Assembly (NCBI GenBank): GCA_947467395.1
Contig: CANIIC010000016.1
Coordinates: forward strand, 1-41,778
Source: Bryobacterales bacterium
GTDB lineage: Bacteria > Acidobacteriota > Terriglobia > Bryobacterales > Bryobacteraceae
Length of the DNA stretch: 41,778 bases
Direction of reading: 5' to 3'
The notes under the pieces are model-generated. The model was not told where the DNA came from and made no database searches. It saw only the letters and a program-made list of their open reading frames with translations. Positions 8,542 to 16,111 of the stretch are shown one piece after another (the stretch's first letter is position 1; each line of letters begins with the position of its first letter). The translations under genes and the position numbers were made by a program.

Positions 8542-11043
8542 ATGCGCGAACCGCTTCTGCTCCCGTTGTTGTGGATCGCCAGCGGGGTTGTGCTGGGGCA
8601 GGCCTTCGATTTCGGCGTTCGGGAGTCCATTGGGCCCGCCGTCTCATTCGCTCTGCTGTCCCTAGCGAAAGCTTCGCCTCTTCTTCGCAAGATTGCTCTT
8701 TCTCTTTGCTTCACCTTCCTGGGAGCGTTCTTCGTCGCTGCGCACCGGCCAGATCGGATTCCGTTGCTGGATGTTTCGTCGCGCGACATGGCACTGGCCG
8801 AAGGCTGCGTGGTCCAGCCAACCGTCTTCTCCAATGACCGGACGCAATTCGTGCTGGAACTGGAGCGCGGTGCCCGGGCGCAGGTACAGGTGCCGAACAA
8901 CCCGATCCAGCTGCGCTACGGTCAACGCGTCGCCATCGAAGCCCGGTTTCGAGTGCCGCACAATTTCCAGAATCCAGGGGCCTTCGACTACGCTGCCTAT
9001 CTCTCACGGCGCGGCATCTTCTGGACGGCGCTGGTTCCCGCAAAAGGCAGCGTGCAAGTGTTGCCGGGGGACTGTGGAACGAGATGGCTTGGTTGGGTGT
9101 TTGCGCTGCGCACAGAAGCCATCGATCGCATCGATGCACTGTATCCCGACAATGACTACGCCGCCGCCATGCTGCAGGCGGTTCTGATCGGCGAATCCAG
9201 CAACCTGGAGCGGGTGTGGACAGAAGATTTCCGGCGTTCCGGAACGTATCACGCGCTGGTGATCAGTGGGATTCACGTGAGCGTGCTGGCCAGCGTGTTG
9301 CTCGCGCTGCTACACTTCGCCCCCATCTCTAAGAACAAGTCGCTGGCGCTGACCTCGCTTCTCGCCTGGATCTACGCTCTGGTCTCCGGCTGCACCGTGC
9401 CGGTGGTGCGCGCGGCTGCGGGCTTCACGCTGTACCTGATCGCGCGGATTTTCTTCCGGCGCGTACGGCCTCTGAATCTGCTCTCCGGAATCGCCATCGT
9501 GTACCTGGCTTGGGATCCGCTGCAGTTGTTCGAGGCGAGCTTCCAGCTGTCCTTCCTTTCTGTCGCCGCCATTGGAGCGTTCGCCTCGCCACTCCTCGAA
9601 ACATACCTGACGCCGTTCCGCCGTGCGATGCGCGACGTGAACACACTCAGCATCGATCCGCATCTCCCGCCGCGAGCGGCACAGGCACGTGTAGAGTTAC
9701 GACTCGCCGCGGAAACCGTCGCGCTGTGGACCTGGATTCCGGCCCGTTTCGCAGGCATCGCGATCGCCCTGTGCGGACGCCTCTGGTTCTTTGCCCTGGA
9801 GTTGGGCGCCGTTTCGCTGTGCGTGCAGATCGGGCTGGCGCTGCCGATGGCGGAATATTTCCATCGCATCTCTTTCACCGGCTTGAGCGCGAATCTACTC
9901 ATTGTGCCGTTGATGAATTTACTGGTGCCGGTCGGATTCCTGGCGCTGTTCACGGGCTGGCATTGGGCCGCACAGTTCGCCGACGCACTGCTGCGATGGT
10001 CCGCCGTGGTCGCACGTTGGCACGCGGCGCGCGAGCCGGAATGGCGCGTACCCGATCCTCCAGCGTGGTTTGGGATCGCGTTTGTGTTGGCGCTCCTGGG
10101 GACCGCGATACTGATCCGCCGGGAGCGGTTGCGTTGGCCCGCGCTGGCCGCGATTACCGCAATGCTGCCCTTGTTGGTCGCAAGTCCGTGGGCCATGGCG
10201 GCAGAACCCGGCTCGCTGGAGCTAACGGTGATCGACGTCGGTCAGGGTGACAGTCTGCTGCTGGTGTTCCCCCAAGGCGGCACGATGCTGATCGATGGCG
10301 GTGGGCGGCTGGAGTACGGCAACATGAAGCGCCGCTCCAATCTGGACATCGGAGAGGACGTGGTGTCCTCCTATTTGTGGTCACGCGGCATCCGGCACCT
10401 TGATGTGATTTCCGTGACCCACGCGCATCAGGATCATGCGGGCGGGATCAAAGCGTTGATCGATAATTTTCATCCGGACGACTTATGGACAGGCGCGAAT
10501 CCGCCGGAGGAGCTGTTGAAGCAGGCTCGCCAGAAAGGGGCTCGCGTCATCGAGAAGAAGGCCCCGGAAGTGATGGATTTCTCGGGTGCCACTCTGGAAG
10601 TGCTGGCGCCGGGCAGCGATTACGTCCCGTCATCCCCCGGTAATAATGATTCCCTGGTGCTTCGGATCACGCACGGTCAGCGCACGTTCCTCCTGATGGG
10701 CGACTTGGAGCGCGTCGAGGAGCAACGCTTGTTGCAGCACGGATCGGTGCACGCGGACGTCCTGAAAGTGGGCCATCACGGCTCGCGGACCTCCACCACG
10801 CAGGGCTTTCTAGACGCCGTGGCGCCGTCGATCGCGCTCATCTCCGCCGGGTATGAGAATTCCTTTGGGCATCCGCACCCCGATGTCGTGGGTCGCCTGG
10901 AGGCCCGGCATGCCACAATCCTGCGCACCGACCGGTTCGGACTAGCTACCGTGACCACCGACGGAACCCGTCTTCACTATGGGATCGAGACGTGGCAACA
11001 GCCCTCGAAAATCCTAGGACTTCCAGAGCATTTGGTACACTGA
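8542..11043 (+). CDS. comEC: ComEC/Rec2 family DNA internalization protein
   Basis: 833 aa: N-terminal OB-like region, multi-TM competence domain (YHALVISGIHVSVLA), C-terminal metallo-beta-lactamase domain (VIDVGQGDSLLL, THAHQDHAGG, KVGHHGSRTST). Confidence 0.95.
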   Translation: MREPLLLPLLWIASGVVLGQAFDFGVRESIGPAVSFALLSLAKASPLLRKIALSLCFTFLGAFFVAAHRPDRIPLLDVSSRDMALAEGCVVQPTVFSNDRTQFVLELERGARAQVQVPNNPIQLRYGQRVAIEARFRVPHNFQNPGAFDYAAYLSRRGIFWTALVPAKGSVQVLPGDCGTRWLGWVFALRTEAIDRIDALYPDNDYAAAMLQAVLIGESSNLERVWTEDFRRSGTYHALVISGIHVSVLASVLLALLHFAPISKNKSLALTSLLAWIYALVSGCTVPVVRAAAGFTLYLIARIFFRRVRPLNLLSGIAIVYLAWDPLQLFEASFQLSFLSVAAIGAFASPLLETYLTPFRRAMRDVNTLSIDPHLPPRAAQARVELRLAAETVALWTWIPARFAGIAIALCGRLWFFALELGAVSLCVQIGLALPMAEYFHRISFTGLSANLLIVPLMNLLVPVGFLALFTGWHWAAQFADALLRWSAVVARWHAAREPEWRVPDPPAWFGIAFVLALLGTAILIRRERLRWPALAAITAMLPLLVASPWAMAAEPGSLELTVIDVGQGDSLLLVFPQGGTMLIDGGGRLEYGNMKRRSNLDIGEDVVSSYLWSRGIRHLDVISVTHAHQDHAGGIKALIDNFHPDDLWTGANPPEELLKQARQKGARVIEKKAPEVMDFSGATLEVLAPGSDYVPSSPGNNDSLVLRITHGQRTFLLMGDLERVEEQRLLQHGSVHADVLKVGHHGSRTSTTQGFLDAVAPSIALISAGYENSFGHPHPDVVGRLEARHATILRTDRFGLATVTTDGTRLHYGIETWQQPSKILGLPEHLVH

Positions 11044-11079
11044 ACCCAGGGCGCTGTGTGCCCGAAATACGGTACCGAA

Positions 11080-11787
11080 GTGCGCTTACTGGTTCTCTTT
11101 CTCGCGTCCGCCCTCATCGCCAGCCCCGTCGCCTCTAAATTCCCTCCCGACCTCACTCCGGAGTTGAATGACGTTGTGCAGCGGTACGTTTCCGCCACCG
11201 AAAAACAGCGGAAAGCGATGTTAGGCGTCCAGATGGAGATGGAGATCGACGGCCGCTTCACGAAGCTCAACGAGCAAGGCCGCATGCGGGTAATGCGCAC
11301 CATTTCCAAGCTCGGCGAACTGAGCATGAAGATGGTGGAATTCGTTGGCGACAACCGCATCAAGACAGAGTTGATCGCACGCTACCTGGATGAAGAACAA
11401 AAGGCCAAGGCGTATGGCGCCATTACGATCGCCCCGGCCGACTACGAATTTGAGATCAAGGCGATCCTGAAACACGGCGGCCAGAGCACCTATGTCTTCG
11501 ACGTGACGCCGCGCAAGAACGACCCTGGGCGCTTCCGAGGAGAGCTGTGGGTGGATGGCGAGACCGGCATGCCGCTGCGCGAGGCGGGTCAGATGGTGAA
11601 GAGTCCCCACCTGCTTCTGGCGAACCTGCGCTTTGCGCGTGACTACGAATTGCACGACGGCATCGCCGTTGTGAAACACTTTCAGAGCAGTACCGACGTG
11701 CGCCTGCTGGGCGTGGGCCGGGCTGAGCTCGACGTTACATTCAGCAACCTTTCGCAGGCCCCTGCGGAAAAGACGGAACAACTGTAG
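11080..11787 (+). CDS. Secreted protein, LolA/RseB-like fold suspected
   Basis: GTG start at 11080 gives a signal peptide RLLVLFLASALIASPVAS; pattern of outer-membrane lipoprotein-sorting-like beta domain (GELWVDGETGMPLREAGQM). Confidence 0.55.
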   Translation: MRLLVLFLASALIASPVASKFPPDLTPELNDVVQRYVSATEKQRKAMLGVQMEMEIDGRFTKLNEQGRMRVMRTISKLGELSMKMVEFVGDNRIKTELIARYLDEEQKAKAYGAITIAPADYEFEIKAILKHGGQSTYVFDVTPRKNDPGRFRGELWVDGETGMPLREAGQMVKSPHLLLANLRFARDYELHDGIAVVKHFQSSTDVRLLGVGRAELDVTFSNLSQAPAEKTEQL

Positions 11788-11808: not shown

Positions 11809-13254
11809 ATGAGAACGCTTTTTCTAAATCCACCCTCCTTTGAAGGTTTTGACGGCGGAGCCAGTTCCCGCTGGCCGTCCACCCGCGAGATCGAATCCTA
11901 CTGGTACCCGGTGTGGTTGTGTTACCCGGCGGGCATGATTCCGGACAGCAAGGTGGTGGACGCTCCGCCGCACGGCATCTCGATCGAACAGACCGTGCAG
12001 ATGGCGAAGGATTTTGAACTGCTGGTGCTGTTCACTTCGACACCCGGTTTCAACGTGGACGTGAAGATCGCGAACATGATGAAGGACCTGAACCCGAAGC
12101 TGAAGGTGTGCTTCGTGGGTCCTCCAGTGACGACGGAGCCGGACAAGGCTCTCAACGCCACCACAGCAATCGACTTCATCGTGCGCCGCGAGTTCGATCA
12201 CCAGATCGCCAACTACGCCAAGGGCGTGCCGCTCGAAGAACTGCCGGGCGTCAGCTACCGCAAGGACGGCAAGAACGTTCACAACCCGGAAGGTCCAGTG
12301 ATTGAGAACCTGGACGAACTGCCGTGGGTGAGTAAGGTCTACAAGCGTGATCTGGATTTCCGTCGCTATAACGTTCCGTTCCTGCTGAACCCCTACATCT
12401 CTCTGTACACGTCGCGCGGCTGCCCGGCCATGTGCACCTTCTGCCTGTGGCCGCAGACCCATTCCGGGCACCGGTGGAGACTGCGTTCGAACGAAGACAT
12501 CGTGAACGAAGTGAAGTACATCAAGGACAACTTCCCGGGCTTGAAGGAAATCTTCTTCGATGACGACACCTTCAACTATCGCGAAGCCCGCACCATCGCG
12601 CTGTGTAAGGAATTCGAGAAGCTGGACTTCACTTGGTCCTGCACGTCGCGCGTCACCACCTCGGAAGACACGCTGAAGGCGATGAAGGATGCCGGGGCGC
12701 GCCTGTTGATTGTCGGCTACGAAAGCGGCGACCAGCAGATCCTCAAGAACATCAAGAAGGGCGCGACCGTGGAAGGCGCCAAGCGCTTCACCAATCAGGC
12801 GCACAAACTGGGCCTGACCATCCATGCCGACTTCATCATCGGCCTGCCGGGTGAAACACGCGACACGATCCGTAACACCATCGACTTTGCCAAGAACCTG
12901 GACTGCGAAACAATTCAGGTTTCGATCGCCCATGCCTACCCGGGCACTGAGTTCTACGACTTCGCGAAGCAGAACGCACTGATCAACGTGCAGATGTCCG
13001 ACGAACAGGGACATCAGCTGCCCAACGTGATTTATCCCGGGATCTTGGATGAAGCCGAGATGATGGAATGGGTGGAACGCTTCTACGGCGAGTATTACTT
13101 CCGCCCGAAGGCCGCGTGGCGCATCGTGCGCAAGGCGATCTTCGATAACAGCGAACGCAAGCGTCTGTACAAGGAAGCTCGCGAATACATGGCCTTACGG
13201 TCGAAGCGTAAGAAGTACGTGGAAGACATGCGGTCGGCCAAGGCGAACGCCTAA
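11809..13254 (+). CDS. hpnJ: Hopanoid biosynthesis associated B12-binding radical SAM protein HpnJ
   Basis: MRTLFLNPPSFEGFDGGASSRWPSTREIESYWYPVWLCYPAG; radical SAM CxxxCxxC in SRGCPAMCTFCLWPQ; overall HpnJ-like sequence. Confidence 0.9.
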   Translation: MRTLFLNPPSFEGFDGGASSRWPSTREIESYWYPVWLCYPAGMIPDSKVVDAPPHGISIEQTVQMAKDFELLVLFTSTPGFNVDVKIANMMKDLNPKLKVCFVGPPVTTEPDKALNATTAIDFIVRREFDHQIANYAKGVPLEELPGVSYRKDGKNVHNPEGPVIENLDELPWVSKVYKRDLDFRRYNVPFLLNPYISLYTSRGCPAMCTFCLWPQTHSGHRWRLRSNEDIVNEVKYIKDNFPGLKEIFFDDDTFNYREARTIALCKEFEKLDFTWSCTSRVTTSEDTLKAMKDAGARLLIVGYESGDQQILKNIKKGATVEGAKRFTNQAHKLGLTIHADFIIGLPGETRDTIRNTIDFAKNLDCETIQVSIAHAYPGTEFYDFAKQNALINVQMSDEQGHQLPNVIYPGILDEAEMMEWVERFYGEYYFRPKAAWRIVRKAIFDNSERKRLYKEAREYMALRSKRKKYVEDMRSAKANA

Positions 13255-13260
13255 GTTCGG

Positions 13261-13656
13261 ATGACAAGCTCGCATTTGCGGTGGAAGACACGCGCCTTCG
13301 CGGCGTACGTCATCCTCAGCAATTCTTTCGGGAACCTGTTCCTGGCGATGGGCATGCACCAAAGCCAGGAGGTCAATTCTGTCCTGAGCGCACTGGCCGC
13401 AATCTTTAATCCTGTCGTCGCACTGGGCATCGTGTTGCTGATCTCCTGGTTGCTCACGCGCATGGCGATGTTGAGCTGGGCCGACCTCACCTATGTACTG
13501 CCCGTGACGGCACTGGGCTACGTCGTGAGCGCCGTGCTGGGCTTGCTGTTCCTGCATGAAGTCATCACTCCAGTTCGTTGGGCTGGAACAGTGCTGATCA
13601 TGCTGGGCACGATTCTGGTCGGCATTGGCGATCCGCACGCGGAGAAGTCCAAGTGA
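13261..13656 (+). CDS. Four-TM SMR/EamA-like (ArnE/F-like) membrane protein, subunit 1
   Basis: 131 aa, four hydrophobic helices, ...LTYVLPVTALGYVVSAVLGLLFLHEVITPVRWAGTVLIMLGTILVG; 6 nt after the hpnJ stop. Confidence 0.8.
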   Translation: MTSSHLRWKTRAFAAYVILSNSFGNLFLAMGMHQSQEVNSVLSALAAIFNPVVALGIVLLISWLLTRMAMLSWADLTYVLPVTALGYVVSAVLGLLFLHEVITPVRWAGTVLIMLGTILVGIGDPHAEKSK

Positions 13657-14003
13657 GGTCCTGGCTACTGCTCAGCGTCGTGGTCGGTGCAACGGTGACG
13701 TCGGACATGCTGCAGGCATTCGAGATGAAGCGGCAAGGCGAGGTGCAACAAGCGGGAACGTTCGTTGCGAGCATCTTCCAGAAGAAGCTGCTGATCCTCT
13801 CCATCTTCTGCATGGCGATTTCATTCTTCGCGTTTATGTCGCTGGTGCAAATCGCGGACTTGAGCTTTGCGGTGCCGGCCTCGGCCGCGAGCGTTGTGCT
13901 GGAAACCATCCTGGCCAATATCATCCTCAAGGAACGTGTCGACAAGAGGCGTTGGCTCGGCGTCGCCTGCGTCGCGGCTGGCGTATACTTACTGGCTCTG
14001 TGA
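13653..14003 (+). CDS. Four-TM SMR/EamA-like (ArnE/F-like) membrane protein, subunit 2
   Basis: GTG start overlapping the previous stop (GTGA, 13653-13656); SLVQIADLSFAVPASAASVVLETILANIILKERVDKRRWLGVACVAAGVYLLAL. Confidence 0.8.
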   Translation: MRSWLLLSVVVGATVTSDMLQAFEMKRQGEVQQAGTFVASIFQKKLLILSIFCMAISFFAFMSLVQIADLSFAVPASAASVVLETILANIILKERVDKRRWLGVACVAAGVYLLAL

Positions 14004-15079
14004 CGCTAGAACTCATTTGCGGGATTGCGGCGGGCTACCAGTTGTTCGCGCTGGTGGCGAGCCTCGCGTTCAAGGCGCAGCGCATTGAGACCATCGGGCA
14101 ACAAGGGCCCGTCAGTATCCTGAAGCCGGTGCATGGGATGGAGCCCGCGATGCGCGATGCCATCGCGTCCCATGCGTCGCTAGAAGGCGACTATGAGTTC
14201 CTGTGCGGCGTGCGCGACGGCGATCCGGCCCTCCAGTTGATTCATGAGTTCCCAAAGGCACAGATCGTGCCGACGCGAACACAGACACCGAATCTCAAGG
14301 TCGGCGTGTTGATCGACCTGGGAAATGCAGCACGCAACCCAACGGTGATTGTGAACGATGCCGATATTCGCGTGGAGCCGGACTACATCGCGCGGGTGAC
14401 CGGACCGCTGTCCGACCCCAAAGTTGGGTTGGTCACATGCCTGTATCGCGCGGAGGGCGACACCTTTGCCGCGCGGTTTGAAGGGTTGGGAATCGCGACG
14501 GATTTCGCGCCCTCAACCTTGGTCGCACGGATGGTGGGCGTGGACGAATTCGCGATGGGTTCCACAATGGCGTTCCGTCGCAACACGCTGGATCGCATCG
14601 GAGGCTTCGCGGCAATCGCCGACTACTTGGCCGACGACTATCAGTTAGGGCAGAGAATTCACGCACTGGGCTTGAAGTGCATGCTGAGCGATGTGATCGT
14701 GACCACACATCTTGGCGGTGGGTGGCGCGATGTGTGGCTGCATCAAGTGCGCTGGTCACGCACGATTCGCGTGTCGAACTTCTGGGGCTACATGGGCTTG
14801 CCCGTGACGTTCGCAACGTTGTGGGCCGCGGTCGCCGCGATCACCGGCAACTTCTATCTGGCGTCGATGCTCCTGGCGATGCGCCTCATGATGGCGATGG
14901 TCGCGGGCGGCGTAGTGCTCGGCAGCACGCAGGCGATGCAGCTCTGGCCACTGATTCCTGTGCGTGATCTGTTCGGCGTCGCCGTGTGGATCACCGCACT
15001 GTTCGGCCGCACGGTGGTGTGGCGCGGGCGCCGGCTCCGTCTGGATGATTCCGGCCGCATTCAGAACGCGGATCAGTAG
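14000..15079 (+). CDS. hpnI: Hopanoid biosynthesis associated glycosyltransferase HpnI (ceramide glucosyltransferase-like)
   Basis: GTG start overlapping the previous stop (GTGA); QQGPVSILKPVHGMEP, NDADIRVEPDYI, DDYQLGQRI and HQVRWSRTIR motifs. Confidence 0.87.
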   Translation: MTLELICGIAAGYQLFALVASLAFKAQRIETIGQQGPVSILKPVHGMEPAMRDAIASHASLEGDYEFLCGVRDGDPALQLIHEFPKAQIVPTRTQTPNLKVGVLIDLGNAARNPTVIVNDADIRVEPDYIARVTGPLSDPKVGLVTCLYRAEGDTFAARFEGLGIATDFAPSTLVARMVGVDEFAMGSTMAFRRNTLDRIGGFAAIADYLADDYQLGQRIHALGLKCMLSDVIVTTHLGGGWRDVWLHQVRWSRTIRVSNFWGYMGLPVTFATLWAAVAAITGNFYLASMLLAMRLMMAMVAGGVVLGSTQAMQLWPLIPVRDLFGVAVWITALFGRTVVWRGRRLRLDDSGRIQNADQ

Positions 15080-15220: not shown

Positions 15221-16111
15221 ATGGAAACGGTGAAAGCAAACAATACTCCGGAACAGAAGTCCGGTACAGCGAAGTGGATTGTGGCGGGAGCGATTGCAGC
15301 GCTCATGGCATCGGGCGGGTTCCTGGTCCAACGCGTGAGCCGGTTGGAAGCTCAGCTGGATGAGCAACGCACCACGGCACAGAAACAGCTCGCAGACCTC
15401 CGTGATGCGACCGCCTCTTCAACAGTGGCAATGAATCGCACAGTGGAAGAGTTGAATCATCAGGTGGCCGAAGGGAACAAATCGGCCTCTGCCTCGGCGC
15501 AGCGCGCGGCAGCGATCGCGCAGAAGAACGCGGAGAAACTGGTCGCGCAGTTGCGCGAACAACAGGACGAAGTCGACCAGAAGTTCACACAACAGATCGG
15601 TGAAGTAAAGACTGTTACCGACGAACACACGCAGAAGGTAACCGGCCTGGAATCGAGCGTCGGTGAAGTGAAGCAGTCTGTCGGCACAGTGCAGCAGGAG
15701 GTGGCGTCGACCAAGAGTTCGCTCGATCAGACCATCGCGGACTTGAAGTCGGTGCGCGGCGACTTGGGCGTGCAGAGCGGCTTGATCGCGACGAATTCGA
15801 CAGAGTTGAAGGCCTTGAAGGACTTGGGCGATCGCACCTACTATGAGTTCACAGTGAACAAGAAGGCTCCGGTGAAAGTCGCGAGCATAACACTGGAACT
15901 CAAGAAAGTGGACACGAAGCGTAACAAGTACAACGTGAACATCGTAGCGGACGACAAGCGCGTCGAGAAGAAAGACAAGACGATCAATGAGCCGGTGCAG
16001 CTGTATGTCGGCGGGTCACGGCAGCCTTTCGAGATCGTGGTCAATGAAGTAAAGAAGGACACGATCATCGGTTACGTGGCGGTTCCGAAGGTTCTGCGAG
16101 CGGGCCGCTAA
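15221..16111 (+). CDS. Membrane-anchored coiled-coil protein with C-terminal beta domain, unknown function
   Basis: AAGGAGG Shine-Dalgarno at 15204-15210; N-terminal TM (KWIVAGAIAALMASGGFLV), ~190 aa coiled coil, C-terminal YYEFTVNKKAPVKVASITLELKKVDTKRNKYNVNI... Confidence 0.75.
   Translation: METVKANNTPEQKSGTAKWIVAGAIAALMASGGFLVQRVSRLEAQLDEQRTTAQKQLADLRDATASSTVAMNRTVEELNHQVAEGNKSASASAQRAAAIAQKNAEKLVAQLREQQDEVDQKFTQQIGEVKTVTDEHTQKVTGLESSVGEVKQSVGTVQQEVASTKSSLDQTIADLKSVRGDLGVQSGLIATNSTELKALKDLGDRTYYEFTVNKKAPVKVASITLELKKVDTKRNKYNVNIVADDKRVEKKDKTINEPVQLYVGGSRQPFEIVVNEVKKDTIIGYVAVPKVLRAGR

Follow-up and report, generated by a model that had tools for sequence, protein, structure and literature searches.

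Hopanoids are the sterol analogues of bacterial membranes and the main bacterial molecular fossils. To our knowledge, no protein has been established for moving glycosylated hopanoids across the inner membrane. Outward hopanoid movement is associated with HpnN of the RND family, to which the role proposed here for a pair of small membrane proteins can be likened. HpnI is a GT21 enzyme and joins a sugar directly to BHT in the published scheme (PMC12583986), and the occurrence of hpnI and hpnJ without hpnK has been reported (PMC5462960). Among SMR proteins, an opposite charge bias is the signature of heterodimers, and lipid SMRs often carry Asn in place of the central Glu (PMC9574504). The closest described system is ArnE/ArnF, the flippase of undecaprenyl-phosphate-L-Ara4N, which shares with the pair studied here its adjacent, overlapping genes and its 4-TM subunits of about 110–130 aa. 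In the open-licence literature, no paper describing the SMR1 and SMR2 genes was found.

Layout and enzymes of the hpnJ-hpnI operon

The analysed window is a stretch of 41,778 nucleotides from a Bryobacterales bacterium and lies on contig 16 of a 4.07 Mb assembly with 96% completeness. The operon runs on the forward strand and includes a gene for a LolA/RseB-like secreted protein of 243 aa (11056..11787, +), which ends 21 nt upstream of hpnJ. The latter encodes a cobalamin-binding radical SAM enzyme (11809..13254, +), closes with a TAA stop and is followed after 6 nt by SMR1 (13261..13656, +; 131 aa, 4 TM, EamA clan). SMR2 (13653..14003, +; 116 aa, 4 TM) starts with GTG in a 4-nt GTGA overlap with the SMR1 stop, and an hpnI-type GT21 glycosyltransferase of 359 aa (14000..15079, +) likewise starts with GTG in a 4-nt GTGA overlap with the SMR2 stop. 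The layout given by an earlier, sequence-only reading was exact when the sequence was read directly; the 243-aa gene was not mentioned in it. In 100 of 128 pairs from related loci, the closest in-frame start of SMR2 gave the 4-nt overlap with SMR1, a figure inflated by the choice of the nearest start. Since this overlap recurs and relatives likewise have the pair downstream of hpnJ, the order hpnJ-SMR1-SMR2-hpnI is not a product of chance.

Two flanking genes were also considered. The comEC/rec2-type gene upstream of the operon (8542-11043, +) is probably unrelated to it, because among the compared loci it adjoins hpnJ only in the sister genome. A coiled-coil gene 3' of hpnI (15221-16111) was rejected as a member of the system, being present among the compared loci only in the sister genome.

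The identity of the window HpnJ is unambiguous, with 751 bits against NCBIfam TIGR03471 (cut-off 578) and an intact CxxxCxxC motif. The operon HpnI scored 304.6 bits against TIGR03472, just under the cut-off of 310, matched PF13506 at 9.5e-43 and retains the NDAD, DDYQ and QVRW motifs expected of the fold. In the tree it belongs to a diverged clade specific to operons of the window family. A second HpnI paralogue of the same genome (contig C244; L219, 1-1020) lies above the HpnI cut-off and falls into a separate clade common to families f1 and f2. No hopanoid neighbours that would account for the remote HpnI copies were found.

True HpnK is absent from f1 and f2, which keep HpnI and HpnJ. Of 35 genomes, only five contained HpnK over the cut-off (G089, G111, G123, G156 and G183), and the best match in the window genome reached 172 bits against a cut-off of 232.6. 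Because true HpnK is missing, the HpnI/HpnJ product in the window family may differ from the textbook cyclitol ether. A ChbG/YdjC deacetylase homologue (contig C105; L103, 2916-3698; 172 bits to HpnK) was found across f1 and f2; its score does not support it as a hidden HpnK, as genomes with true HpnK have a second copy of similar score.

Nearly all of the 49 family loci had a homologue of the 243-aa gene upstream of hpnJ in the same orientation, and one lies beside an HpnI gene in the f2 genome G144 (L220, 5930-6751). PF17131 (LolA_like) was matched by 20 of 23 members with a best E of 8e-8, and PDB 3bk5, an outer membrane lipoprotein-sorting protein, was matched at E 0.002. By eye, the start of the 243-aa protein resembles a signal peptide. 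Going by these resemblances, the protein fits the part of a candidate periplasmic hopanoid carrier.

Fold, key residues and origin of the pair

SMR1 and SMR2 were both predicted by AlphaFold as 4-TM bundles with mean pLDDT values of 89 and 90, and the predicted models have the SMR fold at the usual subunit size of about 100-130 aa. Against PDB structures, the SMR1 model resembled EmrE/Gdx-Clo with a best TM-score of 0.58/0.72, and the SMR2 model reached 0.71/0.74 to EmrE. EmrE and Gdx-Clo were the top fold matches in the PDB with a probability of 1.0, but with weak E-values of 0.016-0.07. A phmmer search of the PDB with SMR2 alone yielded no match. Among named families, ArnE was nearest to SMR2 (E 6.8e-7 for the window protein, 4e-10 for the best member).

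Aligned to EmrE, residues E14, Y60 and W63 were lost in nearly all pair members, so that the central Glu, the Tyr switch and the binding Trp of Qac/Gdx drug and guanidinium SMRs are all gone. At the E14 site, SMR1 carried N, A, G, S and Q in 43, 34, 13, 5 and 4% of members, respectively, and SMR2 carried T (40%), S (35%), A (12%), G (9%), N (2%) and D (2%). A central position that is not acidic and is often Asn agrees with the lipid-subtype SMRs. One helical turn further, at EmrE T18, D or E occupied 97% of SMR2 members and D or N 99% of SMR1 members, and the window SMR2 carries an acidic D18 within TM1. Given an EmrE-like fold, this site would face the central cavity.

Arg/Lys bias was calculated with a published formula (PMC9574504) from approximated start sites. 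The medians were +4 for SMR1 and -6 for SMR2, and the two members had opposite bias in 110 of 120 pairs, as expected of adjacent genes encoding paired SMR heterodimers. In the window the values were +6 and -7, with SMR1 predicted as N-in/C-in and SMR2 as N-out/C-out. The two proteins are homologous (profile E 1.7e-40) and are split by a well-supported branch (100/99) in a tree of about 120 positions, whose deep order is rough; a single old duplication therefore predates their spread. Opposite bias in two such old sister groups argues strongly for an antiparallel SMR1/SMR2 heterodimer, which we regard as highly probable from the sequences.

These results bear on three claims of the sequence-only reading. 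Its heterodimer is supported, with opposite topology, by the charge pattern, and its resemblance to ArnE/ArnF is upheld by the family search, although SMR2 at 29.5 bits stayed far below the equivalog cut-off of 92 and SMR1 reached 10.7 bits. Its description of the proteins as SMR-like agrees with the predicted EmrE/Gdx-Clo fold but not with Pfam, where neither protein matched the SMR model PF00893 and both matched EamA instead (3e-5 for the window SMR1 and matches in 29 of 31 relatives; 4.5e-12 for the window SMR2).

Single relatives of the pair were found near an HpnI gene in three genomes with HpnH and without HpnJ (G097, G126 and G255). The one in G126 shares an operon with HpnI, HpnA, HpnH and an HpnG-like phosphorylase. 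The HpnI-linked single relatives have near-balanced charges of about -1 to -2 (counted by hand, as scripted values misplace some loops), carry Gln at the TM1 site like ArnE and branch just outside the pair in the tree. In a simple reading of these sequences, an HpnI-linked homodimer may have given rise to the HpnJ-linked heterodimer.

The single genes of these hopanoid producers are located at L210, L211 and L212. A DegT-type sugar aminotransferase adjoins the single relative in L211 and L212, and the neighbourhoods in G126 and G255 carry DegT-type genes. The HpnI-linked single SMRs suggest a different, perhaps amino-sugar, hopanoid headgroup.

Distribution of the pair among hopanoid producers

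HpnJ was detected with a family profile in 57 of 61 genomes of the window family. Among loci with at least 1.2 kb available downstream of hpnJ, the pair followed hpnJ in 28 of 29 same-family genera, and the 29th had one SMR gene. The pair was also downstream of hpnJ in 67 of 76 named public contigs, some of them from MAGs that bear the labels Planctomycetota, Myxococcota and Nitrospirota; as MAGs make up much of this set, unexpected taxon labels may reflect binning errors. Public relatives with the same operon and an HpnI of the same clade go by the names Bryobacterales, Solibacteraceae or Terriglobia.

Gene order varied outside the window family. In family f2 of the same class, the pair follows hpnJ and hpnI has been relocated elsewhere. 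Blastocatellia-type genomes have the order hpnJ-hpnK-SMR1-SMR2-hpnI, which also occurs in MAGs with a Myxococcota or Acidobacteria label. The pair occupies a site other than hpnJ in cyanobacterial MAGs, G190 and G268-G270, and no detectable pair was found in the HpnJ genomes G259, G260 and G262. On a Brocadiaceae contig (L105, 11035-13545), the genes downstream of hpnJ are an SMR pair, then a GT2 and then a polysaccharide deacetylase, which resembles an arnC/arnD/arnEF arrangement.

Co-occurrence was assessed in 199 Acidobacteriota genomes, with the pair defined by SMR2 at 100 bits or more. HpnH was present in 50 of them and HpnJ in 29, counting the split gene of G163 and excluding the distant homologue of G090. 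The pair occurred in 27 of the 29 genomes with HpnJ compared to two of the 170 without it. Within the HpnH-containing genomes, it was present in 27 of 29 with HpnJ and in none of 21 without it (Fisher 4e-12), a p-value that is uncorrected for relatedness and overstates independence, as 19 of the 29 genomes belong to f2. At the family level, f1, f2, f32 and f50 had the pair, and f25 and f66 lacked it.

The pair thus tracks the HpnI/HpnJ, or composite hopanoid, branch beyond hopanoid synthesis as such, and a service to hopanoids in general is ruled out by its absence from all 21 HpnH genomes lacking HpnJ. It very probably serves the HpnI/HpnJ pathway. The only complete pairs in the 199 genomes without HpnJ were those of G229 and G134, which also lack HpnH. 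In both (L208 and L209), the pair is flanked by opposite-strand genes.

In f25, HpnL takes the place of the pair, in the order hpnI-hpnJ-hpnK-hpnL as in Mycetohabitans, and HpnL also replaces it in f66, where the cluster is broken over short contigs. With 22 further HpnJ genomes added to the Acidobacteriota sample, the pair was present in 51 of 57 HpnJ genomes, two of them with HpnL, and absent from six, three of them with HpnL (Fisher 0.006, uncorrected for relatedness). Strict mutual exclusion is ruled out by two MAGs (G272 and G274) in which the pair coexists with an HpnL-like protein. HpnL and the pair are partly complementary, and HpnL tends to replace the pair.

The hpnJ-SMR order and the linkage to HpnI and HpnJ, both read from the window alone, accordingly extend to relatives, and in the 199 genomes SMR pairs of this kind are not widespread beside unrelated genes, with two close pairs outside HpnJ genomes. 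The proposed distinction from HpnN stands as far as the pair belongs to a family other than RND, but the two are not companions: HpnN over the cut-off was found in none of 35 genomes tested, and the window genome had no match at E 1e-10. Since the tested genomes with the pair yielded no HpnN, the two do not act side by side in them.

Proposed function and comparison with known systems

SMR1/SMR2 is read here as an obligate antiparallel heterodimeric flippase of the ArnE/F type for the composite hopanoid made by HpnI and HpnJ, with a probability of roughly 0.6. HpnI, using a sugar-nucleotide donor, and HpnJ, using SAM, would act at the cytoplasmic side. Because both need cytoplasmic co-substrates and the product would arise in the inner leaflet, the finished polar headgroup would have to be moved. 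SMR1/SMR2 would transfer the sugar-decorated hopanoid across the inner membrane, out of its cytoplasmic and into its periplasmic leaflet, and the 4-nt overlaps would couple the translation of SMR1, SMR2 and HpnI. In Bryobacterales-type genomes, the LolA-like periplasmic protein of the same operon may take the lipid onward to the outer membrane. We infer the flipping itself, its direction, substrate and energy source, and the LolA step. The simplest exit for the lipid would be through an SMR heterodimer of the lipid type that is coupled to the last glycosyltransferase.

The strongest competitor is a flippase of lipid-linked sugar, such as an undecaprenyl-phosphate sugar, which would act like ArnE/F in periplasmic hopanoid or glycan modification and not on the hopanoid. 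ArnE is the closest named family for 25 of 31 SMR2 members, the Brocadiaceae genes after the pair resemble arnC and arnD, and the single relatives of G126 and G255 neighbour sugar aminotransferases. It is nevertheless unlikely, given that the window operon showed no ArnT-like periplasmic transferase, that the pair tracks HpnJ, and that HpnI puts the sugar straight on BHT (PMC12583986). Somewhat less likely still is a scaffold role in the membrane, in which the pair would keep HpnI and HpnJ together or offer up the hopanoid substrate. Translational coupling to HpnI and tight linkage to both enzymes would suit it, but in f2 the pair stays with hpnJ while hpnI is elsewhere, the intramembrane acidic residue is conserved, and both the predicted fold and the antiparallel pattern of charges belong to transporters.

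It is improbable that the pair instead moves a small precursor or by-product of the HpnI/HpnJ chemistry in or out across the inner membrane, despite a remote similarity to NIPA and to the nucleotide-sugar transporters of SLC35. Bacteria have their donor sugars and SAM in the cytoplasm, which removes the need for such transport; lipid SMRs are a known subtype often without the central Glu (PMC9574504). The predicted SMR fold and the existence of SMR pairs like EbrAB and MdtIJ (PMC9574504) would also allow an ordinary exporter of drugs, guanidinium or polyamines placed in the operon by chance. This is very improbable with the central Glu, Tyr switch and binding Trp lost and with a co-occurrence that follows HpnJ and not other hopanoid producers.

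As a hopanoid flippase, the pair would be a compact candidate for the inner-membrane step, common to much of Acidobacteriota. It could explain the export of these lipids by producers without HpnN, and its complementarity with HpnL provides a hint about HpnL function. More tentatively, and with somewhat less than even odds, it would represent a new hopanoid flippase class, a composite-BHP-specialised SMR heterodimer that arose from the HpnI-linked single-gene form, replaces HpnL, is independent of HpnN and works with a LolA-like carrier.

Compared to known systems, HpnL (TIGR03476, flippase-like LPG-synthase TM family) is likewise a membrane protein and ends hpnI-hpnJ-hpnK clusters, but is a larger, unrelated putative flippase. 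EmrE, Gdx, EbrAB and MdtIJ share the predicted fold and, where paired, the opposite charge bias, whereas SMR1 and SMR2 are without E14, Y60, W63 and a PF00893 match. The 10-TM EamA/DMT transporters (YddG, SLC35) belong to the same clan, and their inverted-repeat halves correspond to antiparallel SMR1/SMR2, which are encoded as separate 4-TM genes. Unlike ArnE/ArnF of lipid A modification, the pair is linked to hopanoid genes, its SMR2 lies far below the ArnE cut-off, and D/E or D/N stand where ArnE/F have Gln. With ArnE/ArnF it shares the loss of the central Glu and an operon with a glycosyltransferase and a deacylase. The arn operon of E. coli, with arnC (glycosyltransferase), arnD (deformylase) and the two overlapping small membrane genes arnE-arnF, parallels the Blastocatellia-type hpnJ-hpnK-SMR1-SMR2-hpnI cluster and provides an architectural precedent for the proposed flippase.
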